Source of the DNA: a virus
Length of the DNA: 20,481 nt
Direction: 5' to 3' (one strand)
IMG/VR virus record: IMGVR_UViG_3300037485_000230
Coordinates: 1-20,481 of that record
Below the pieces are notes generated by a model. That model worked only from the letters and a program-made list of their open reading frames with translations, had not been told where the DNA came from and ran no database searches. Shown here piece after piece: positions 9,832-19,978 of this stretch. Position numbers and translations under genes: made by a program. Within the stretch, counting starts at the first letter, position 1, and the number at the start of each line of letters is the position of its first letter.

Positions 9832-11264
9832 TAGACAGCCAGCCCTTCGGCTTCGATCTCCAGCCGCATGATGCCCAGGTGCGCGTCTGACGTGCCCTGG
9901 AACCGCTGCCCACGGAAGTTACGCATGAAGCCGTTTCGACGCCACACGAGGCGCTGCGTTCGCTCACCAATGGTACCAACGCTGATGCTTTTGCTCTGCG
10001 ACCATTGGACGCCATCGACACTGTAGGATGTGCTGATCGTGGGGTCATCGCCAAGCGCAACGCGTCCAGACAGCGCCACCAATTCAAGGCTATGAATAAT
10101 AGCGCCTTTGCTGGCGTTGTAGGCGAAGACCGTCTGAAACTCCCATCCCACCGTCTCGCCCCAATGAGTGCCGATGGTCTGGTCCGTGTAGCCGATGCGT
10201 GCGCTGTTCGGGTCTCCGACGTTCCAGCGGTCGTAGCACCACACGAAGAAGCGGGCGCGATAGAGCCCAAAGCCCGTCAGCGACGTCGACAGCGTGAACC
10301 ACACGGCAGCCTTGACGGCTTGCGTGGCCGCCATGTCGTAGACCAGCGTTCGGTCTGGCAGGTGAACATACAAGTGGCTGTGGCCATTGTCGTTGCGTGG
10401 CTCGAGGACCGACAAGGAAAGTTCCTGTTCGGTGAAGCCAGCCAGAACGCGGTCAATTTCAACGGTGCTGATCTTGTTGCTGGACCCGTTGCCGGCGATG
10501 TAGATGCCTGGCTGTTCGTTGCGACCGCTGCCGATGAAGGCCACGGCCTCTTCGTAAATGCAGCAGGCTTTTGCGCCAACGCACCCACGCATTATCTGCG
10601 CGCCTTCAATGCGCTGGAACGGAAAGCCAGCGCCACCGACGTTGTCGAACATTTCAATGGTGTAGCGGTTGAGTGCGACAGGTTCGTTGCGAACCTTGAG
10701 CAATGCAATAACCGGGTCTGGGTCAGCTTCGCTGGAACCGTACTTCAAAGGTTCAACAGCAGTCGGGTCGGTCAGTTCTGTGACGACGAGAAATTCGCCA
10801 TCTGTCGTCATGAAGTAGCCATCGACCCAGATAACGTCAGCAACAAAACCAAGGTCAGGATCGGTGACCTGAACAACGGAGGCGCCGTCAAAAAGAAACA
10901 AGCCGCCGCCACTGGCGATGGCAAGAATTCCCATCGGATATGCCGGCGACGACGGACCATAGGCCATTGAAACAGGAGGACCGTTGCCCACGTTTCCAAG
11001 GTCCGAATACACGCCAGCGGCTGACAGGCTGTAAAGCCGTGAACCAATGACGCGATACAGAATACCCATCCAGTTGATGCCGCCACGAGTCACGCCAGTG
11101 ACGGCGCCAACGGTGCCCACCTGCACGATGCCGTCCCCTGGCCTCAGATACCCTTCGCTGATGCCGGACGGCACTGGCGTCGGCACAAGGTTTTTCGGGT
11201 AGCTGATGCGGACGTCGGGAGCGCCAGCGCTGGAGTAGACACCGGAGATGACAGGGACTTGCAT
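9831..11264 (-). CDS. P22 gp10-like packaged DNA stabilisation / tail hub protein
   Basis: 477 residues, against 472 for P22 gp10. Matching landmarks in the same order: [12 protein letters not shown] near the N-terminus (P22 GYLRSFPGI), [12 protein letters not shown] (P22 VSMAHGRTSQ), [21 protein letters not shown] (read around residues 260-280; P22 SVYIIGSGQASPIATASIEKI), [10 protein letters not shown] (P22 HLPRHVLVYD) and [16 protein letters not shown] near the C-terminus (P22 KRVLWKRVGRIRRLIG). gp10 binds below gp4 and closes the portal channel so packaged DNA does not leak. The ATG overlaps the preceding stop by one base (TGATG). The gp4-like gene is nearby but separated by one additional gene, unlike P22 where 4 and 10 are adjacent. 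Confidence 0.92.
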
Positions 11265-12277
11265 CAGCCGATCCGCCAGTTCGTCCCATCGCTGTAGACA
11301 GGAACGCAGTTGGCACCGCCACCAGCGACGACAGCACCGATACCAGCGGTCAGCGCTTGCGTTGCGTCAACAACGACAGAGCGGTAGCCCTTGCTGGTGG
11401 CAGCAGGGTAGGCAATCGCCAACAGTGCGACCGTCGAGGTGGCAACACCGCCAGTCTTGATGGCGTCGGTGATGGGTCCGGTCAGCGTTTTGCTGGTGAG
11501 AGTCTGCGAAGCGGTTTCCGTGACAATAACATCGCCATTGATCGCGGCAGTGCCACTGGTAGTGACAAGAAGGTTTCCAGTGCCAGTGGAAAGAGCAATG
11601 TTTCCACCGCCTTTTGATGAGATTGTGAGGCTCACATTCGTATCTGCACCTCTTGCCAAGATGCTTGGGCTATTCCCTGTTGGCTTTGATGTCAAAAGCA
11701 AATAATTTACAGCGCTTACGCTTTCTGCCGCTAATTCAAGCAACGTGTTGCCAAATTGGTCTTTGATAGAAGCAGGAATGTCGGTCAGCGTAATGTTGTC
11801 GAACGATGTCCCAAGCGCACCCAACGATTGAGACACGCAGTACCACGACGACAGCAGCTTGTTGAAGCGCAGCGCAAAGAATCCATCGATCCCCAGTGCT
11901 GCTGGAGCACCGTTTACCGTCGCACCGTTGCCGGCCACCGTCAGGGCCGTGATGGATTCAGTTGAGGTCACCAGCACCTGCTGGCCATCGAAACAGTCGG
12001 CGACAGGAGGCAACGTAACCGTGCCTGTGGCGAGCGTTCCAGCGGGTGTGAGGATGAGCCAGATTGACGTAGCAGACGTCGCCAAAACCTGATTGAACCC
12101 GGCGATGGGTGACGAGATGGTGACTGCCACATCGGGCGATGCGAACGCACTCCGGAAGTAGGCTACGAACTGAGAAACCGACGCCTTGCGAGCGGTTCCG
12201 GCGTCGCTGTCGTAGACAGGGACTTGGTCACCGCCACCAAGGGCGTCAATCTGCGAAAGGCTGTTGATCGTCGTCAT
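11264..12277 (-). CDS. Hypothetical phage structural protein inserted between gp4 and gp10 homologues
   Basis: The ATG at 12277 is preferred over an upstream start because TGAGGT lies 5 bases before it, overlapping the gp4-like stop; this gives 337 residues. The N-terminus (INSLSQIDALGGGDQVPVYD then GTARKASVSQFVAYF) is a motif I associate with podovirus tail proteins that begin with an INxLxxLD segment. The middle is beta-rich with no enzyme motif (TSSKGGGNIALSTGTGNLLV-like strands, then SQTLTSKTLTGPI, a phrase common in phage fibres). The last 40 residues (GYRSVVVDATQAL ... CVPVYSDGTNWRIG) form a recognisable C-terminal beta cap seen in virion proteins. P22 has nothing between genes 4 and 10, so this is an inserted cistron; it probably decorates the tail or carries fibres. 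Confidence 0.72.
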   Translation of the reverse strand: MTTINSLSQIDALGGGDQVPVYDSDAGTARKASVSQFVAYFRSAFASPDVAVTISSPIAGFNQVLATSATSIWLILTPAGTLATGTVTLPPVADCFDGQQVLVTSTESITALTVAGNGATVNGAPAALGIDGFFALRFNKLLSSWYCVSQSLGALGTSFDNITLTDIPASIKDQFGNTLLELAAESVSAVNYLLLTSKPTGNSPSILARGADTNVSLTISSKGGGNIALSTGTGNLLVTTSGTAAINGDVIVTETASQTLTSKTLTGPITDAIKTGGVATSTVALLAIAYPAATSKGYRSVVVDATQALTAGIGAVVAGGGANCVPVYSDGTNWRIG

Positions 12278-12284
12278 GCGAACC

Positions 12285-12770
12285 TCAGTCGAAATCAATT
12301 TCGCTATCAGGTCCCGCAAGAAGCGGGTCAGATGGCGAAGGGAAGAATGGGTCTTCGTATCCACCGCGCCACGACTTGGCACCAGCACCACGCGGAAGAG
12401 TGCTTGGGAATTGCATTTCAGGAATGCGGGCGGTGAACGTCGTAAGGTCGGCGATTGCCTTGCGCGCCGTGGCCATTGTCTCCTGTGAAAGAGACTTGCC
12501 GTAGGAGGGCGCCAGCAACTTTGCCAAGTTGGTGATGATAGCCGTGTTGGCTGCCTCAGGGACGCTGGTCACGGCGTCGATGTCGCTCCCCGATGGCGTC
12601 GACGACGACGGATAAGAAACGCGAATGCCTCGCACCTCCCACTGCGCCATCATGCTGTCGAGGCGACGCAACGCGGACTGGAGTTCAGCCGGCGAAAGGT
12701 CAAAGACGTAGTCAGCCAGACCAAGTTCGGTCAGCGCGTCGTTGATGTATTGCCGCTTAGTCCAGCCCAT
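12285..12770 (-). CDS. P22 gp4-like head completion / portal accessory protein
   Basis: 161 residues (P22 gp4 has 166). The family pattern is clear: an N-terminal helix with ALTELGLADYVFDLSP, LDSMMAQWEVRGI (P22 LEAMMAEWYQDGI), NLAKLLAPSYGKSLS (P22 NLACRIAPDYALE), and the FPSTLPRGAG loop (P22 YPSRMPTGSG) followed by a flexible acidic tail. In P22 twelve copies bind the portal ring after packaging and form the platform for gp10 and the tailspikes; a peptidoglycan-cleaving activity has also been reported for P22 gp4. AAGG lies upstream and the gene follows the HeH gene after 3 bases. Strong anchor for the P22-type tail assignment. Confidence 0.92.
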   Translation of the reverse strand: MGWTKRQYINDALTELGLADYVFDLSPAELQSALRRLDSMMAQWEVRGIRVSYPSSSTPSGSDIDAVTSVPEAANTAIITNLAKLLAPSYGKSLSQETMATARKAIADLTTFTARIPEMQFPSTLPRGAGAKSWRGGYEDPFFPSPSDPLLAGPDSEIDFD

Positions 12771-12773
12771 GGG

Positions 12774-13070
12774 TCAGCCCTTGCTTTCAGATGCCGCGTG
12801 GGCTTCTAGGATTCGTTCTGCCAGCCGTTCGTTGCTGTTGCGGCTGTCCAGCTTGACCCCCAGCCGCCTGGCCTCTGCTTCAAGCTCAGCGCGTGTGATG
12901 GGTGCTTCCTCGGCGACATCGTCAAGCCCGGCAAAATCAGCCAACGCCTCGGAGCCTGTGGAGAACCACCCGCGCTTGAGCGCCATGGAGTAGTCCGCAT
13001 GCGTTGGACAAAGCAGGCTGCTTAGATGGCGCTTGCTTGTGGCCTTGAAGACGTCACGAGGGAAAATCAC
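12774..13070 (-). CDS. Small protein with C-terminal HeH/LEM-like domain
   Basis: 98 residues from a GTG start that overlaps the stop of the DUF6496-like gene (GTGA), implying coupling. Residues 1-30 ([19 protein letters not shown]) are basic and amphipathic. Residues 57-90 ([19 protein letters not shown] then [10 protein letters not shown]) fit the helix-extension-helix (HeH) pattern, LGVKxDxRxSxxxLxxRI, often found in small phage head-region proteins and in nucleic-acid-binding SAP-like folds. It lies between the Lys-rich peptide genes and gp4. It may assist head completion or bind DNA; neither is shown by the sequence. Confidence 0.78.
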
Positions 13071-13397: not shown

Positions 13398-14009
13398 TCA
13401 GCCAATGCGCGTGGTCGCGAACGAATCAGCGGCAAGCTTCACCGTGCGGAACATGCCGGCAGTGGTGGTCGCGACGGTGCCAAGGCCAGTCAACGTGTGA
13501 CCAGACGCGGCAGCGGCGACGGTCAACAGGGATGGACCCGTGTTGATAACGCCCCAGTCGAAACCCTCGCCAACATCCCATTCGGTGGCAAGGTCAGAGA
13601 CGACGCCGGTTTCGAGGGTCGCGATAACAGCAGCAGCACTGGTGCTGCTGATGCTGCCAGACAGAATCATCGCCGTGGTGATGGTTCCGGTGACGTTCAA
13701 CGCGATGGCAGGTCCGCACTTGCCAGTGTCGCGACGGAAATCCTTGGACAGCGGGTTGACGCCGACTTCGACATAGCACTCAAACGGACCCATGTTGTTG
13801 ATGATGGCGCTGCCACCAAGGGTCACGGCGGCGGTGACTTCTTCTTCGTTTTCGACGCTGACAGTGGCAACGGGGTTGGCGCTGTCCAACACCTTGTCTT
13901 GCGCCGACTGCAGGGAGTAGTTGGCGCGGCCACGAGTGGCGATGGCGATTTTCTCGCCAGCGGGGACGGTTACCTTGAGTGAACCGTTTGGAGCGATGAT
14001 CTGTGACAT
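13398..14009 (-). CDS. Probable head-associated virion protein (decoration-like), 203 residues
   Basis: A strong AGGAG lies 5 bases before the ATG. The N-terminus (PNGSLKVTVPAGEKIAIATR) matches a short beta module often found in phage proteins encoded next to the coat gene. The C-terminal 55 residues (FDWGVINTGPSLLTVAAAAS, HTLTGLGTVAT, GMFRTVKLAADSFATTRIG) fit a conserved phage domain ending in the pattern F-R-T-x-K-x-A-A-D-x-F. It is predicted to be all beta with no catalytic residues. It is bounded by terminators on both sides, so its dose is probably set separately from coat and tail genes. Decoration or cement protein is the best guess from position next to coat; it has no counterpart in P22 itself. 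Confidence 0.75.
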   Translation of the reverse strand: MSQIIAPNGSLKVTVPAGEKIAIATRGRANYSLQSAQDKVLDSANPVATVSVENEEEVTAAVTLGGSAIINNMGPFECYVEVGVNPLSKDFRRDTGKCGPAIALNVTGTITTAMILSGSISSTSAAAVIATLETGVVSDLATEWDVGEGFDWGVINTGPSLLTVAAAASGHTLTGLGTVATTTAGMFRTVKLAADSFATTRIG

Positions 14010-14040: not shown

Positions 14041-14072
14041 ATGGAAAAGCGGGGGCTCAGGTGAGCCCCCGC
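14041..14072 (-). terminator. Intrinsic terminator after the coat gene
   Basis: Perfect 11-bp stem GCGGGGGCTCA / TGAGCCCCCGC with a 2-base loop (read on the minus strand), followed by TTTTCC. It begins only 7 bases after the coat stop. It probably raises the ratio of coat to downstream gene products through partial read-through and may protect the coat mRNA 3' end. Confidence 0.85.
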
Positions 14073-14078
14073 TACAGG

Positions 14079-15362
14079 TCAGGGAACCTGATTAAACGCG
14101 ATGCTGCCGACCATCTCAGGCGCCAGCACGGTGACGCCCCAACGGGCGGTCAGGCGGTACTGCACCTTCGCTGGACCGATAGCGGCCTGCTTGAGCGCGA
14201 CGACAACAATCCCGTTCTTCAGGGTCGCGGTCATTTTCGACATGCCGGCGTCTTCGGGCATCATGATCTGCGACGGCGTCAAACAGATAGCTTCCTTGTG
14301 GAAGAAGTAGTTCTGTGGGGCAGCGTCGACGTTCAGGAACACCAACGCGGTGTTGGCGGCGGGGCTACCGTCGGCGACGTTCTGGTACTGCTTGCCACCT
14401 TCACCAGGCGACAGGGCGCTGATAAACGGGGGCGAGATAACCACGTCAGTGATGCTGCCGGCCACGAGCTCAACGACCACAAAGGTCTTGAGTTCGCCGG
14501 TCGATTCCTTCGTGATCGGGTAGACGTTGAAGCAGTCGGCCAGGGTGAATCGGTCACCAACGGCGACGCCAGTGTTGCTGGACAATGCAACCTGCTGACG
14601 GCGGCTGTCGACGTTCTGGATGCCGTCGCCGCTGTCGAGGGTAGCGATGGGCGTCCACACGTTGCCACCGGCAAACAGCGTCGACATGGTCAAGCCAGCG
14701 CCACCAGCGGCAGCGGCCTGGTTCTTCGTGTACTGCTGGCGAAAGGTCTCCATGCCGGCGAGTTCGCCAACGTAGGACTGGCGCAGCGCTTTGGTGCTGA
14801 TGTCACCAATGAGCGAGCGGCTGGCCTTCGACAAGTCGCTAGCCATGTCACGATAATCGCGTGGGTTGAGAACCAGCTGACGGTCGCTGGCCTTCACGCC
14901 GTTTTGGTCAAGCAACGTCGCAATGTCGGCAACGTCGTCAAAGCCAGAGGCGGCGCCGGTTTTGGCGATGAACAGCGAACCCCAACGGTTGATCGTGTTG
15001 ATCACGCTCAGGTTGATATCGCTGGCCAGCTTCTCGAGGCCAGCCTTGAAAAGCCGCTTCTCCTGCAGGGCGTCACGAAGCTCCAAGCCGTCGAGTTCCG
15101 ACAGCGCAGACTTCATGTTGTTGACGCGGACAGGGACAGACAACTGAACCTTGCCGGCGAAGTTGGTGGACTGGTCCAGGCCGTCGTAACTGGTCTGGAT
15201 GTAGGGGCGAGGAATCCAGAAGGAATCGCCACCACGCTGCTGGTCCGTGAGGTCCATTCGCTTGGTATCGACGAGACCAGCCATGGACAGAGCGTCCTCG
15301 GCTTCAACGACCTGTTCGGCGAAGAGGACTTTTTCCTCTTTGGTGAATGCATTTGAACCCAT
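14079..15362 (-). CDS. Major coat protein, P22 gp5-like (HK97 fold)
   Basis: 427 residues (P22 coat has 430). Conserved landmarks in order: FWIPRPYIQTSYDGLDQ in the N-terminal arm region, LSVPVRVNN (P22 LNVAVNMGE), LELRDALQEKRLFKAGLEKL (P22 [20 protein letters not shown]), LNPRDYRDMASDLSK (P22 FNPQDYKKAGYDLTK), and NVDSRRQQVALSSNTG (P22 NVDNRFATVTLSATTG), the latter in the region of the inserted beta-barrel (I-domain). It forms the icosahedral shell with the scaffold encoded immediately upstream (3-base gap). The Shine-Dalgarno is A-rich and weak, so translation is probably coupled to scaffold. A strong terminator follows. Confidence 0.95.
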   Translation of the reverse strand: MGSNAFTKEEKVLFAEQVVEAEDALSMAGLVDTKRMDLTDQQRGGDSFWIPRPYIQTSYDGLDQSTNFAGKVQLSVPVRVNNMKSALSELDGLELRDALQEKRLFKAGLEKLASDINLSVINTINRWGSLFIAKTGAASGFDDVADIATLLDQNGVKASDRQLVLNPRDYRDMASDLSKASRSLIGDISTKALRQSYVGELAGMETFRQQYTKNQAAAAGGAGLTMSTLFAGGNVWTPIATLDSGDGIQNVDSRRQQVALSSNTGVAVGDRFTLADCFNVYPITKESTGELKTFVVVELVAGSITDVVISPPFISALSPGEGGKQYQNVADGSPAANTALVFLNVDAAPQNYFFHKEAICLTPSQIMMPEDAGMSKMTATLKNGIVVVALKQAAIGPAKVQYRLTARWGVTVLAPEMVGSIAFNQVP

Positions 15363-15365
15363 AGA

Positions 15366-16196
15366 TCACTTTTCTTTCTTTGAACGAATCGAGTTGACCA
15401 AGGCGGTAACGTCGTCGCTCTTTTCGGCGTCCTTTAAGAGGCGCTCACGTGTGGTCCCGGACGTCGCGGCAGTGCCGTTGATCGTGCGGGCTGGCTTGGG
15501 AGGGGATTTCTTTGCAGTGGTCACTGTGAGTGTCGTTTCCAGTTTTCCGACTCGCATAGCGAATTTGGCGTAGTCCTTGACGGAGGCCAGTTCGGCCAGT
15601 TTGCCTTCGTCGTTGCCAAGCGCGATAACAAGCGCAGCGGGGTTGTCGGCGTCAAGAAGGATCTCCTGTTGGTACACGTCGAGGATCGACGTCACCACGC
15701 TTTCGGCTTCCTTGAAAGCTGGCTCTTTGAATGAGCCCTGTCCCTCTCGATAGCGGATCAGCTTTTTGGAACGCTCTTCGGCTTGCCGTGTCTGCGCTTG
15801 CCGTTCCTCTTGCTCGCCTGCTTCGGCTTGCGCCTTCTGCTTCAGCCACCGTTCCAGGGCGTCAGCATACTTGTCGGCGTCATAGTCGATCCCGTCGTCA
15901 TCTTGCTTTGGCTTTGGCCCCAAAGCCTTCTTCGGTGGCGCCTTCAGCTGGGCAAGCTCAGCCTCCAGTGCACGTGCCTTGCGCTCTTGTTCGCGCAACT
16001 TGGCGCGCACTTCACGGAAGACAGAAGATTCTTTCTCAGCCTCTGGCTTTGGCTCGCCAAAAGAAGCAACGGTCTCAGCGGGTGCGTCGTCGGTTTCGCC
16101 TTCGCCTTCTGGCTGGGCTTCGACCTCAGGGGTTTCCGCTGGCTGCTCTTCGACGTCGTCAACGGCCTCGTCGCCGTTCTCTGGATTGACACTCAT
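15366..16196 (-). CDS. Scaffolding protein
   Basis: 276 residues (P22 gp8 has 303), immediately before coat. The N-terminal 55 residues are highly acidic (Glu/Asp/Pro-rich), residues 58-85 (FREVRAKLREQERKARALEA) and about 108-145 form long charged helices likely to coil, and the C-terminus is basic (KKSPPKPARTI at 229-239, then SIRSKKEK at the end), as expected for a coat-binding scaffold tail. Scaffolds guide procapsid assembly and leave before or during packaging. GAGAGG sits 6 bases before the ATG. The gene is preceded by the only long regulatory gap inside the operon, with a terminator, promoter-like boxes and a hairpin on the ribosome binding site. P22 gp8 is known to control its own synthesis, so this leader may serve a similar purpose. 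Confidence 0.88.
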   Translation of the reverse strand: MSVNPENGDEAVDDVEEQPAETPEVEAQPEGEGETDDAPAETVASFGEPKPEAEKESSVFREVRAKLREQERKARALEAELAQLKAPPKKALGPKPKQDDDGIDYDADKYADALERWLKQKAQAEAGEQEERQAQTRQAEERSKKLIRYREGQGSFKEPAFKEAESVVTSILDVYQQEILLDADNPAALVIALGNDEGKLAELASVKDYAKFAMRVGKLETTLTVTTAKKSPPKPARTINGTAATSGTTRERLLKDAEKSDDVTALVNSIRSKKEK

Positions 16197-16202
16197 GCAT
16201 GA

Positions 16203-16223
16203 CCTCTCACCGTGTAGGCGGTG
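16203..16223 (-). promoter_or_regulatory. Ribosome binding site of scaffold gene abutted by a hairpin
   Basis: On the minus strand CACCG (16223-16219), a 6-base loop and CGGTG (16212-16208) form a short hairpin whose last base is the first base of the GAGAGG Shine-Dalgarno (16208-16203). Occupation or stabilisation of this hairpin could block scaffold translation. A second GGTGAGA copy lies upstream at about 16234-16240, next to a CCCC-AAC-GGGG mini-stem. Confidence 0.45.
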
Positions 16224-16262
16224 GACCTTTGAATCTCACCCCGTTGGGGGCGGTAGAGGCAG

Positions 16263-16304
16263 CGTATAACTTGCTGCATTCTAGTGCAAGTGCACAAGAG
16301 TCAA
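16263..16304 (-). promoter_or_regulatory. Candidate sigma70 promoter(s) for scaffold-coat
   Basis: On the minus strand TTGACT (16304-16299) is followed after 15 bases by TAGAAT (16283-16278), each one or two mismatches from consensus but with a short spacer. A second overlapping pair, TTGCAC (16289-16284) and TATACG (16268-16263), also with 15 bases between, is possible. Position just after the portal terminator makes a promoter here sensible, since scaffold and coat are needed in large amounts. Confidence 0.4.
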
Positions 16305-16320
16305 GCGCAAAAGAATGCAG
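16274..16320. repeat. Nested inverted repeats upstream of scaffold (operator-like)
   Basis: CTGCATTCT at 16274-16282 and its exact inverse AGAATGCAG at 16312-16320 enclose 29 bases. Inside lies GTGCA-AG-TGCAC (16284-16295), a perfect palindrome with a 2-base centre. The left outer arm overlaps the candidate -10 and the inner palindrome fills its spacer, which is a typical place for an operator. As RNA from read-through, the arms could also pair. Confidence 0.5.
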
Positions 16321-16329
16321 TGGACAGGC

Positions 16330-16359
16330 AAAAAAGAACCCACCGTGTGAAGGTGGGTC
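16330..16359 (-). terminator. Intrinsic terminator after the portal gene
   Basis: On the minus strand ACCCACC (16358-16352), a 7-base loop and GGTGGGT (16344-16338) are followed by TCTTTTTTG. It is about 95 bases past the portal stop and separates the packaging genes from scaffold-coat. Confidence 0.82.
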
Positions 16360-16452: not shown

Positions 16453-18459
16453 TCACTTCATTTGGCCCTGTCCACCACGCAAGCCGTGGACAATTTCCAC
16501 GGTTTGCGCTTCAACCTTGGCGGTCTCGGCAACGCTCTTGCGCGTGTCTGCAGCGGCCTTCTGGGCAAGCGCAAGGCTCTTCTGTGACTCGGCTTCGAGG
16601 AAAGCGGCCTGAGGGTCAGGCTTGGCGTTCTGTGCAGCCTGGGCCATCTCCTGCTGTTCGGCTTCGGTTGGCGTCTGCACACCCATCTGCACGAGGCGCT
16701 TGCGGTAGTACTTGCGCACGTCGCCAACGCCTTCGCCATCCATATTCATGAGCGCTACCGACAGGAGGATTTTCAGGTCTTCAGGGTCTTGCGTCATTTG
16801 CATCATGCTGCTGACAGCGCGAACGGTCGCTTGCCGTGCGCTCTGGCTGTTTGGGCCGACGTCGGCATAGACGTCAAACTTGGCGCGTTCAAAGGTCAGG
16901 CCTTCAAGCAACTCGCCATTGGCGCCTTGCTTTGGCGCGTTGATCTTCTTGAAATCGGCTTCGCCGTCTTCGCTCATGACGCGGACGTTTCGGCCTTCTT
17001 CGACGTATACGTCAGCAGCCATCGACAGCCACACCCTCGCCGTGTGGCGTTTGGCCTTTGCGTAGTTGGTCAAGTAGATCGCGCTCATGCCGTCAACACG
17101 CTGCTGCACGAGGCTGACAGCCTCACCGGATACGCCAGACAACAGCTTCTCTGCTTGCTCTGGCGAACCGAGAATCTCGCGGATCTCGGTCTCGGTCTGG
17201 CCAATGAGTGCAGCCAGGGCAGGAGGGATCGTCGGGGGTTTGGTGTAGTTCTGTGGGCCAATCGGCAGCGGCTGTCCGTTCTCGTCGACGCCATTGATCG
17301 TCAGGTACGGATAGTCCCTGAGGTTGTCTTGTGCCCACGCGATCTCGTGGCCGGCGATTTGCTCAGCCGTGAAGATTGGTTTCTCCCTCGAGGAAAGCGC
17401 CGCGATTTCCGCCAGCTTTGACAGCTGCATGTTCTTCAATCGCTGGCTGTCCTTCACGTAGCGGACGGCGCCAGCGTATCGTTCAATGTTGTCGACGAAC
17501 CAGCGCTTGCCGACGACAGGGATAACAGGGATATATTTGCCGGCGATGACGCCGCAATCTTCGATGATGCCGCCGCCGTCAAGAATCCATTTGTGGACCT
17601 CACGGAACTCACGCTTCTTCTTAGCCTTCAAGCGCCAACCAAGCGCAAACATGCGTTCCAGTTCAGCGGCGAAGTCTTCGTCTTCGTCGTAGTCCTCGGC
17701 TGACAGTTCACGCTCTTCGCCCGTCGGGCCGTTCCAGACTTGCACAGCCTGCTTGCGCTTTTCGATGCGGTAATATTCGCAGACATAGACGATATCTGGC
17801 GTGCTCCAATCAAACGTCGTCGAGGTCACATCCTTGGGCCATGACGACGGGTCGCGGTCGAACTCAGCCTTATAGGCCGTCGGCGTCATGCTCTTGATTA
17901 CCCAACAGCGCCTGGCGTCGCTCTTGTCTTGTTCCTTGGCGCCAAGGTCAAAGTACACCGACGAATCGGCGTCGTAGATCGGTTCAAAGCAGATGCGTTG
18001 GCGTTCGTCGGCTTCGTCGTCAGGGTCGATGAGGTCGGCACGCAATTGCCAAGCGCCAAAGCCGCCCGTGATGGCTTCTTCGCTGCCATTGCCGTAGGCC
18101 TCGTCGGCACTGCTGTCATACTCGTCAGCGCGCAACTTGCCGGCACAAAGGTCAGCAAGATCGTCGTCGAGTTCTGCTTCAGGGTCACGCGGTGAAAACC
18201 GGATGCCGATGTTGGCGTTGCGCATTTCGTTGATGATGCGTACGCATGCGCTCTGAACCTTGTTGAACTCCATTTGCGGACGGCCCTTGAGTTGATCCGA
18301 CAACGGACCCTCCCATTGTGCGCCGGCGATGGAGGCGAAGCGCCGGTCTTCGACACACTGACGGCGCTCGTCGGCTTGCGCCTCTTGCACCTCGTCGAAT
18401 TCGGTCATGGCTTCGGCGTGAATGCGCTGTTCTCGTGTCGTCTGTGATTCTCTGGCCAT
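16453..18459 (-). CDS. Portal protein, P22 gp1-like
   Basis: 668 residues (P22 portal has 725). The N-terminal pattern of P22-type portals is present: DERRQCVEDRRFASIAGAQW, then LKGRPQMEFNKVQSACVRII and MRNANIGIRFSPRDPEAE, followed by the wing domain with FEPIYDADSSVYFDLGAK and ARRCWVIKSMTPTAYKAEFD. A central segment ERYAGAVRYVKDSQRLKNMQ is the stem/clip-side helix region. The C-terminal 80 residues (AAFLEAESQKSLALAQKAAA onwards) are an uninterrupted Ala/Gln/Lys helix, corresponding to the helical barrel that extends into the head in P22. The protein forms the dodecameric DNA entry ring and docks terminase and gp4. It starts 3 bases after the terL stop; AGGTGGTGA precedes the ATG. A terminator follows. 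Confidence 0.95.
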   Translation of the reverse strand: MARESQTTREQRIHAEAMTEFDEVQEAQADERRQCVEDRRFASIAGAQWEGPLSDQLKGRPQMEFNKVQSACVRIINEMRNANIGIRFSPRDPEAELDDDLADLCAGKLRADEYDSSADEAYGNGSEEAITGGFGAWQLRADLIDPDDEADERQRICFEPIYDADSSVYFDLGAKEQDKSDARRCWVIKSMTPTAYKAEFDRDPSSWPKDVTSTTFDWSTPDIVYVCEYYRIEKRKQAVQVWNGPTGEERELSAEDYDEDEDFAAELERMFALGWRLKAKKKREFREVHKWILDGGGIIEDCGVIAGKYIPVIPVVGKRWFVDNIERYAGAVRYVKDSQRLKNMQLSKLAEIAALSSREKPIFTAEQIAGHEIAWAQDNLRDYPYLTINGVDENGQPLPIGPQNYTKPPTIPPALAALIGQTETEIREILGSPEQAEKLLSGVSGEAVSLVQQRVDGMSAIYLTNYAKAKRHTARVWLSMAADVYVEEGRNVRVMSEDGEADFKKINAPKQGANGELLEGLTFERAKFDVYADVGPNSQSARQATVRAVSSMMQMTQDPEDLKILLSVALMNMDGEGVGDVRKYYRKRLVQMGVQTPTEAEQQEMAQAAQNAKPDPQAAFLEAESQKSLALAQKAAADTRKSVAETAKVEAQTVEIVHGLRGGQGQMK

Positions 18460-18462
18460 CGG

Positions 18463-19686
18463 TCACCACCTGGATTCTGAAGGGATAGGGCGAACAGTCG
18501 GGCGCTTGGTCACGGTCACACGTCTGACGCCCTCCAGTGCGTAGCGTAGCGCGTCGATCACATGGTTGTGTCGGTCGCCAAGCACAGGGAGTACGCGCCC
18601 TGTCAGCGGGTCTTGCTTGTAGCTGTAGGTGGTCAGTTCGTCGATCGTGTGCTTGCACCTTGGGTCCACCACAATGTCATAGGACTTCAGGAACTCGACG
18701 CCCTCTTCTACGGACTTGGCGCCTTTGACAGCCGGCATGATCTTGGGGAATCCGTTTTTGCGCATGTGGCTGATCGTCTCGGGCCTGGCGCCATCGGCAA
18801 CGATTGGCCAGCGTTCGGACTCAGGCACAGACAGGAACAGCGATGGCGTATCGACGATATCGCAGCCGACTTGGTACGCCTCGTGGTCAACGTAGAGCGT
18901 TCGCCCGATGAGGTGGCAGCGCACCAGCACCGTTGGGTCAACGCTGAAGCCCCAGTCGGCGCCGAAGCGATGCACAGCGTCAGCGGGTGCGGTCACGTCG
19001 TCGACACGCCAGTTCCTGAACACGCGTAGTTCAGTGGCCTGTGCGTACTTGCCTCGCCACACATGAGCGTACTTGTCGAGGTCTCGTGACCGGTCATACT
19101 CCATCTCTCGACGGAGGACGTCGGGAAACCACGGGTTGTCGTCGTAGTTCACTTCGACAACGATTGCGCCAGGCGGCGCTTGTGGTCCACGCAACAGCGC
19201 ATCCACAGGGTCCGACGCCTGGCTTGGGTTCCATGTGAACCAGAGTTCGCTGTCAGGCTTGCGGATGGTCGGGCGCAAGAGGTCCAGAGACTTCTGCGAC
19301 AGGCTCTGCGCTTCTTCGACCCAGGCGCAATCGTAGCCCTCCAGCGACTTGATGCTGTCAGCAGTGTGATTTTGCATGCCAACGAAGATGATGCGGCCTG
19401 AACCGTTGCGGCTCTTGATGACTGTGTCTTGCACTTCAAACAGATGGCCGACGCCAAGGTCAAGGATCTTCTGTTCGATCAACCGCTTCACGGACTGGTT
19501 CAGGCTCTTCTGCTTCTCGCGAACGCAAACCGTCGACCGGTTGGGATCGGCGACATGACATTCAACCACCATGTCGGCAAAGAGCCAGCTTTTGCCGCTG
19601 CCTCGCCCACCATGAGCGCCTTTGTAGCGTGCCGGCGCTGACAGCGGCTTCGCCCACCGTGGAGTGGGGATCGTGAGATCAGCCAT
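18463..19686 (-). CDS. terL: Terminase large subunit (PBSX/Terminase_3 type)
   Basis: 407 residues from the ATG at 19686, which overlaps the terS stop by 8 bases (ATGGCTGA); a TTG further upstream at 19740 is rejected. ATPase domain: Walker A GGRGSGKS (26-33), Walker B YDCAWVEEA (118-126, catalytic Glu), coupling motif FTWNP (150-154). Nuclease domain (RNase H-like): GADWGF (Asp244), VADGA (Asp298) and DRHNHVIDALRY (Asp378) supply the metal-binding acids. It drives ATP-dependent packaging into the portal and cuts the concatemer. The compact size and motif wording fit the PBSX-type family rather than the 499-residue P22 gp2, so the packaging motor appears to come from a different lineage than the head and tail genes. 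Confidence 0.96.
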   Translation of the reverse strand: MADLTIPTPRWAKPLSAPARYKGAHGGRGSGKSWLFADMVVECHVADPNRSTVCVREKQKSLNQSVKRLIEQKILDLGVGHLFEVQDTVIKSRNGSGRIIFVGMQNHTADSIKSLEGYDCAWVEEAQSLSQKSLDLLRPTIRKPDSELWFTWNPSQASDPVDALLRGPQAPPGAIVVEVNYDDNPWFPDVLRREMEYDRSRDLDKYAHVWRGKYAQATELRVFRNWRVDDVTAPADAVHRFGADWGFSVDPTVLVRCHLIGRTLYVDHEAYQVGCDIVDTPSLFLSVPESERWPIVADGARPETISHMRKNGFPKIMPAVKGAKSVEEGVEFLKSYDIVVDPRCKHTIDELTTYSYKQDPLTGRVLPVLGDRHNHVIDALRYALEGVRRVTVTKRPTVRPIPSESRW

Positions 19687-19978
19687 CTTTGGGATCGACA
19701 ATGGTTCGCACGATGCGGCTGATTGCGATCTCGCCTTCAAGGGTCACAGTCTCTGGCGCCTTGCCGTAGATCCGGTCAACCACGAGGGATGCGGCCTTGA
19801 TGCGGTCCTTGGTCTCTGCTGGCTCTTCGCCAGTAGCGACGTTCAGCAGGTACCGTAGCGCTTCAGGCGCTGCAGACCTGAACCAATCGGGCAACACAGG
19901 ACGGCCACGCGTATTGGCTGTCCCGCCAGGGAGCAACCGGCCGCGCTCATCACGAGCAGGTAGAGTCTTGTTTTCCAC
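19679..19978 (-). CDS. terS: Terminase small subunit (probable)
   Basis: 99 residues from a GTG at 19978, the first possible start after an in-frame TAG; no strong Shine-Dalgarno is visible. The N-terminus contains a disordered basic stretch with GRLLPGGTANTRGRPVLP, then helices PEALRYLLNVAT and DRIKAASLVVDRIYGKAPET, a pattern (GRP ... A.E.L..L... A..D.. R..A...L.DR.YGK) common to small-terminase-like phage proteins encoded just before terL. It recognises the packaging site and regulates terL. The immediate overlap with terL supports the role; direct sequence similarity to a characterised TerS is not claimed. Confidence 0.8.
   Translation of the reverse strand: MENKTLPARDERGRLLPGGTANTRGRPVLPDWFRSAAPEALRYLLNVATGEEPAETKDRIKAASLVVDRIYGKAPETVTLEGEIAISRIVRTIVDPKDG

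Follow-up and report, generated by a model that had tools for sequence, protein, structure and literature searches.

A covarying pseudoknot family at the scaffold start of P22-like phages as a candidate translational operator

The DNA analyzed here (the window) is a 20.5-kb virus record whose structural genes lie on the minus strand in the order portal, leader, scaffold and coat, and then P22-type adaptor and closure genes. The terL gene occupies 18463-19740 (-), a P22-type portal gene 16453-18459 (-; PHROG 156, E 2e-128), a 276-aa scaffold gene 15366-16196 (-; PHROG 648 head scaffolding protein, E 3e-31) and a 427-aa P22-type coat protein gene 14079-15362 (-; PHROG 283, E 8e-61), with the coat being 40-42% identical to that of the nearest named phages and 42.5% being the upper bound for any named phage. 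Portal and scaffold are separated by 256 nt, and the leader under study sits inside this gap, upstream of a scaffold ATG at 16196 that is confirmed by the relative L003. Other open frames in the structural region (13398-14009, 11264-12391 and 12774-13070, all minus) are without a PHROG match, and a 431-aa open frame antisense to coat (14061-15356, +) is probably a composition effect. Two close relatives were used for comparison, L002, which is 99-100% identical in scaffold and coat, and L003, which has 85% identity in coat and 80% nucleotide identity in the scaffold gene. When used as a DNA query against the phage collection the leader gave no match, and a search of viral contigs for the exact leader pattern returned only L002 and the L003 contig. 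Further relatives therefore had to be fetched with proteins as guides.

The upstream part of the leader contains a predicted intrinsic terminator of the portal transcription unit at 16330-16359 (-), as the initial annotation had proposed, with a GC stem (CCCACC/GGTGGG) followed by the T run CTTTTTTG. This terminator is retained in L002. In L003 its place (L003:2048-2087) is taken by a perfect 16-bp hairpin, AGTGCAAGAGGCCCCG/CGGGGCCTCTTGCACT, without a T run, the 3' arm of which overlaps a -35-like TTGCAC. Two further features to which importance had been attached, a 9-bp outer inverted repeat (16274-16282/16312-16320) and an inner palindrome GTGCA-AG-TGCAC (16283-16294), both exist, and the repeat has a chance of only ~1% in composition-shuffled leaders. 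However, the repeat is broken in the 99%-identical L002, where AGAATGCAG is altered to GCAATGCAG, and is absent from L003, so its importance did not hold up, and the conserved part at the palindrome is limited to TTGCACTnnAATGCA, which is common to the window, L002 and L003. We rejected both as the core element because they are not conserved among these relatives; they are lineage-specific DNA features that perhaps form parts of a promoter or operator.

The conserved TTGCACTnnAATGCA encloses a -35-like TTGCAC at 16284-16289 (-) that is identical in L002 and L003, and a -10-like TACGCT, which is TACAAT in L003, lies at 16261-16266 (-). No site passed a sigma-70 scan, but TTGCAC-N17-TACGCT does align with TTGCAC-N18-TACAAT in L003. 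From this alignment we infer a promoter in the window leader that would start the mRNA near 16254, at the foot of a hairpin (hairpin 1) located at 16237-16252 (-).

Hairpin 1, which is additional to the features first listed, reads CGCCCC-CAAC-GGGGUG followed by AGAUU. A second hairpin (hairpin 2) ends on the scaffold Shine-Dalgarno, as had been claimed from the sequence, with CACCG/CGGUG at 16223-16208, AGAGG at 16207-16203 and the ATG at 16196. We found that hairpin 2 is part of a candidate pseudoknot at 16208-16228 (-). Specifically, S1a (AGG, 16228-16226) is followed by L1 (UC), S2a (CACCG, 16223-16219), S1b (CCU, 16218-16216), L3 (ACA) and S2b (CGGUG, 16212-16208), directly after which comes the Shine-Dalgarno AGAGG (16203-16207, -). 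The element thus reads AGG-UC-CACCG-CCU-ACA-CGGUG-AGA and ends 11 nt before the ATG. In L003 it reads GGG-UC-CACCG-CCC-AUC-CGGUG-AGA, so that S1 has gone from AGG/CCU to GGG/CCC by one compensatory A-U to G-C change. Hairpin 1 in L003 has an unchanged stem and a loop in which 4 of 4 bases are changed. Overall, between hairpin 1 and the start codon, 0 of 22 stem bases differ between the window and L003, compared with 11 of the 34 other bases (Fisher p = 0.004).

Minimum-free-energy folding of the leader alone was uninformative (z of -1.6 for the window and -0.4 for L003). Model R2, when run on both strands of the window, returned hairpins 1 and 2 as the sole matches with E up to 10, at 10.7 and 10.3 bits, respectively, with E of 5-7 that are individually not significant; hairpin 1 of L003 scored 12.9 bits. 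These weak z-scores and model scores are what speaks for a leader with nothing but ordinary features of DNA, namely a terminator, a promoter and operator dyads, and with both hairpins incidental in this phage. We consider that explanation improbable and already disfavored by the sequence comparisons, given that stems are kept while loops change, that S1 shows a compensatory change and that the position exactly matches that of the widespread element described below. A separate fold of the window in which GCCUCU sequesters AGAGG was set aside since it is not kept in L003 and needs bases that are at, or upstream of, the start predicted for the mRNA.

A recurring shape was first read from the regions before scaffold in ~70 relatives. 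Its order is S1a, a short linker with C as its last base, S2a, S1b, a 2-9-nt loop, S2b, and AGU or AGA; since S1 and S2 cross, the fold is an H-type pseudoknot. In the form S1-NNC-S2a-S1b-loop-S2b-AGU/AGA it is present in 92 distinct P22-like leaders that include Sf6, CUS-3, APSE-2, PfAn1 and many metagenomic phages. The helices differ widely in sequence, with S2 variants such as CACCCG/CGGGUG, CAACUG/CAGUUG, CGGAA/UUCCG, CGGCU/AGCCG and CAGCG/CGCUG and S1 variants such as GCGGU/GCCGC, CGCC/GGCG, GGG/CCC, CCG/CGG and AAAGC/GCUUU. The unpaired C before S2 is invariant (92/92) and was not imposed by selection. The distance from the S2b end to the scaffold start codon has a median of 17 nt (quartiles 14-19).

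The scaffold leader carries the element in nearly all lineages. Among the named phages that were fetched it is found in Sf6, APSE-2, CUS-3, phiKp_30 and ZP9, with a close variant in Skarpretter, IME279 and STP9 where CGU replaces AGU, and looser versions in Aeromonas 4_4512, AH02 and two Vibrio phages (199E37-1 among them). In Skarpretter, IME279, 4_4512 and Vibrio 199E37-1 scaffold and portal are set apart by other genes, and it is scaffold that the element accompanies. Programmed frameshifting of portal was rejected as a function, as a considerable distance often separates the portal stop from the element, or other genes intervene between portal and element. P22 itself has only a 4-bp S2-like hairpin, UUC-CGGC-AGUGUA-GCCG-AGA, without a clear S1, as does the Proteus phage Brookers. 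We note that in P22 (L092), ~40 nt upstream of the scaffold start (2170), the loop GUGU could pair with a downstream ACAC, which would form a pseudoknot unlike that of its relatives.

The window shows the same arrangement. UC-CACCG...CGGUG-AGA at 16225-16205 has the basal C-G pair, the C before and the AGA after, with this AGA of the Shine-Dalgarno being the conserved AGU/AGA flank; the upstream strand AGG pairs with the 5' part of the loop, CCU; and the 11 nt to the start fall within the ~10-22 nt seen between the S2b end and scaffold. The element is short and divergent, with an S2 of 5 bp and an S1 of 3 bp where 4-5 bp is usual. Hairpin 1 is preceded by C and followed by AGA, as is typical of S2, but is without an S1, and appears to be a stem-only copy at the predicted mRNA 5' end. 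Judged on sequence features, the Shine-Dalgarno hairpin of the window is a member of an old, widespread and covarying pseudoknot family. The initial annotation had stated that the RNA element of this phage type is not known to be described, and this agrees with our searches. Specifically, Rfam 15 gave no match at gathering score for the window and 16 relatives and nothing credible at E up to 10 for the leader of one relative, and no paper describing this RNA was found in the literature that was searched.

A blind pseudoknot scan of 52 contigs gave its best result for the strand at the scaffold leader in 40 of them. A pseudoknot score of at least 26 was reached by 52% of 133 loci, by 1.4% of sequences with shuffled dinucleotides and by 0.2% of the zones elsewhere. 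As a guard against circularity, hairpins were picked by S2 alone and S1 pairing (score of at least 9) was then counted. S1 pairing was observed for 89 of these 109 hairpins, as compared to a mean of 40 and a maximum of 49 after upstream strands were swapped between phages. A covariance model was seeded from 14 sequences with S2 only, for which a fixed-length subset was used as MAFFT had misaligned S2b when loop lengths were mixed. Searched against 715 kb, this S2-only model matched 57 sites at E up to 0.08, and every one of these was ahead of scaffold or coat. The model alignment has 97.7% of its cells paired versus 82.9% when shuffled, and 76 double-change cells versus 18 in shuffles (0/500), with structures slid along the alignment being 14-57% paired. 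Among 55 non-redundant leaders each variable S1 and S2 pair also beats shuffles, with the exception of a rare seventh S2 pair, but pairs in this set are complete by selection. Thus, the weight rests on the partner-swap test and on the pair counts of the model alignment.

When complete phage records were searched, the significant model matches were located upstream of scaffold or coat; with complete bacterial assemblies, five matches had E up to 0.1, and four of these were on the prophage contig. A search for the element outside P22-like prophages gave three matches in 300 Burkholderiales genomes (E up to 0.003), which is about chance, and a glance at their surroundings revealed nothing scaffold-like. 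Note that the models were built on one branch and miss the Sf6, APSE-2, ZP9 and P22 forms, so that a missing model match does not mean a missing element.

A second copy of the pseudoknot is observed 70-115 nt before coat in L016, L021, L022, L030, L060, L066, L073, L078, L133 and others. This coat-leader copy is found only where scaffold and coat are separated by ~110 nt or more. Tandem copies before coat occur in L021, L040, L060 and L091 at a spacing of 31-35 nt; the spacing of hairpins 1 and 2 in the window is 29 nt. In 39 coat leaders S2b-AGU could base-pair with a stretch directly upstream of the coat Shine-Dalgarno, with a mean score of 17.0 versus 12.6 (maximum 13.7) in a shuffled control, and this stretch is sometimes followed by a T run. 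The alternative pairing is a possible switch or attenuator in coat leaders. That the scaffold element is likewise an RNA switch for transcription or translation, in which the pseudoknot alternates with another hairpin, appears highly improbable, as inspection by eye of the scaffold leaders, including that of the window, revealed no such partner between the element and the start codon.

Across the family, a promoter-like TTG...TAnnnT pair lies just upstream of the element in 12 of the 27 leaders that have a portal gap of at least 40 nt, as compared to 3.9% in shuffles and to 8 of the 71 leaders without such a gap. Thus, in some lineages, and probably in that of the window, scaffold-coat has a separate transcript with its start at, or close to, the RNA element. 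A recurring TTGCnn-N17/18-nAnnnT is seen just 5' of the pseudoknot in L034, L061, L014, L079, L095, L096 and L105, which suggests from its sequence a shared promoter type for scaffold-coat transcripts. The transcriptional control that was initially envisaged for scaffold, by a terminator and a putative new promoter, is plausible for the window lineage, and in most relatives the element follows portal closely or without any gap.

The RNA fold, its conservation, its fixed place before scaffold and the copies before coat are well supported by these comparisons. With the element locked to the ribosome binding site and constrained at both paired and unpaired positions, the simplest reading is that of a translational operator. 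Specifically, we propose, at a probability of about 0.58, that the leader pseudoknot acts in cis as a translational operator for scaffold and that its ligand is most likely free scaffold protein. The translational half of the control suggested for scaffold is thus the best-supported reading, based on a covarying pseudoknot at a fixed distance from the start, from which we infer repression. P22 is a textbook example of how capsids assemble, and it has been established for decades that the scaffold of this phage restricts its own production. This autoregulation of gp8 is post-transcriptional and relieved by assembly, and we know of no RNA target that has been identified for it. Since the P22 scaffold limits its own synthesis, scaffold is the best candidate for the ligand. 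In the proposed mechanism the pseudoknot 3' strand ends at the scaffold Shine-Dalgarno, inside the space that a starting ribosome needs, so abundant free scaffold would bind and stabilize the pseudoknot and block initiation. Scaffold locked in procapsids could not bind, and synthesis would then track the need for assembly. In the window lineage a short-S1 element beside a stem-only copy would head its own transcription unit composed of terminator, promoter and leader. Counting against the operator reading are P22, which has only the 4-bp S2-like hairpin even though autoregulation was shown there, and the divergent window element, which at ~10 bits is not significant alone by the model.

Many phages carry one such element, and some of them a tandem pair, before coat as well, which makes a ligand other than scaffold possible. 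We give a modest chance to an operator whose ligand is coat, some other protein of the phage or an RNA-binding protein of the host, such as a ribosomal protein, with scaffold and coat being co-controlled; the invariant C and the AGU/AGA flank would then constitute one conserved binding surface. However, the element is nearly universal before scaffold and accompanies coat only across the wider scaffold-coat gaps, and known P22 genetics point to scaffold. A somewhat smaller chance goes to a structure that works without any ligand and sets the scaffold:portal ratio as a standby site, a 5' mRNA stabilizer or a fixed damper of translation. Its position at the Shine-Dalgarno would fit such a role and, in leaders that have a promoter of their own, so would its place at or close to the predicted 5' end, but the sequence-specific invariants outside the helices (C, AGU/AGA) exceed what a roadblock needs and most copies are internal to the operon.

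The proposed scaffold operator can be compared with known systems. The pseudoknot in the T4 gene 32 mRNA is an autogenous translational operator that lies further upstream and nucleates cooperative binding. Like it, the element here is an H-type pseudoknot in a phage gene leader, adjoining the start that it would control, with control proposed to be by the gene's own product; unlike it, the gene and sequence are unrelated, the element abuts the Shine-Dalgarno and the ligand is a presumed one. Escherichia coli rpsO (ribosomal protein S15) and similar ribosomal-protein mRNA operators also place a pseudoknot at the ribosome binding site for autogenous repression, as would be the case here. These are cellular genes where the assembly signal is the ribosome rather than the procapsid, and we know of no sequence relation to the element. 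The MS2/R17 coat-replicase operator is similar in that a protein of capsid assembly acts on structured RNA at a translation start, as scaffold would here, but it is a single hairpin of an RNA phage that represses another gene, whereas here a pseudoknot lies before scaffold's own start.

A regulatory role of the P22 scaffold traces to Wyckoff and Casjens (1985), as cited in PMC5744158. The pseudoknot and its wide conservation are not known to have been part of the 1985 work. The link to gp8 drawn in the initial annotation is nonetheless apt, given that the gene and position are the same and that P22 retains an S2-like hairpin with the same flanks. A pseudoknot common to Sf6, CUS-3, APSE-2, PfAn1 and a large environmental radiation is a concrete candidate for the RNA target. 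Somewhat short of an even chance, in our estimate, is the broader proposal that, throughout the P22-like phages, one pseudoknot family is the operator that has long been missing for assembly-coupled autoregulation of scaffold, and that many of them use a second, switchable copy before coat to tie the output of scaffold and coat to procapsid assembly. If true, this would clearly exemplify how a virus can use RNA to tune the production of an assembly catalyst to assembly itself, and the family would make a new Rfam entry.

Finally, in regards to how scaffold might contact the RNA, scaffold C-termini are usually basic, with a median charge of +7 in 60 residues. The scaffolds of Sf6 and APSE-2 are without this tail yet these phages carry the element, so the basic tail is unsupported as a universal RNA binder and the binding site may be elsewhere in the protein. 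The scaffolds of these two phages (L104 and L102) end in ...KLCPGAKIE or ...QLCPGAMIE.
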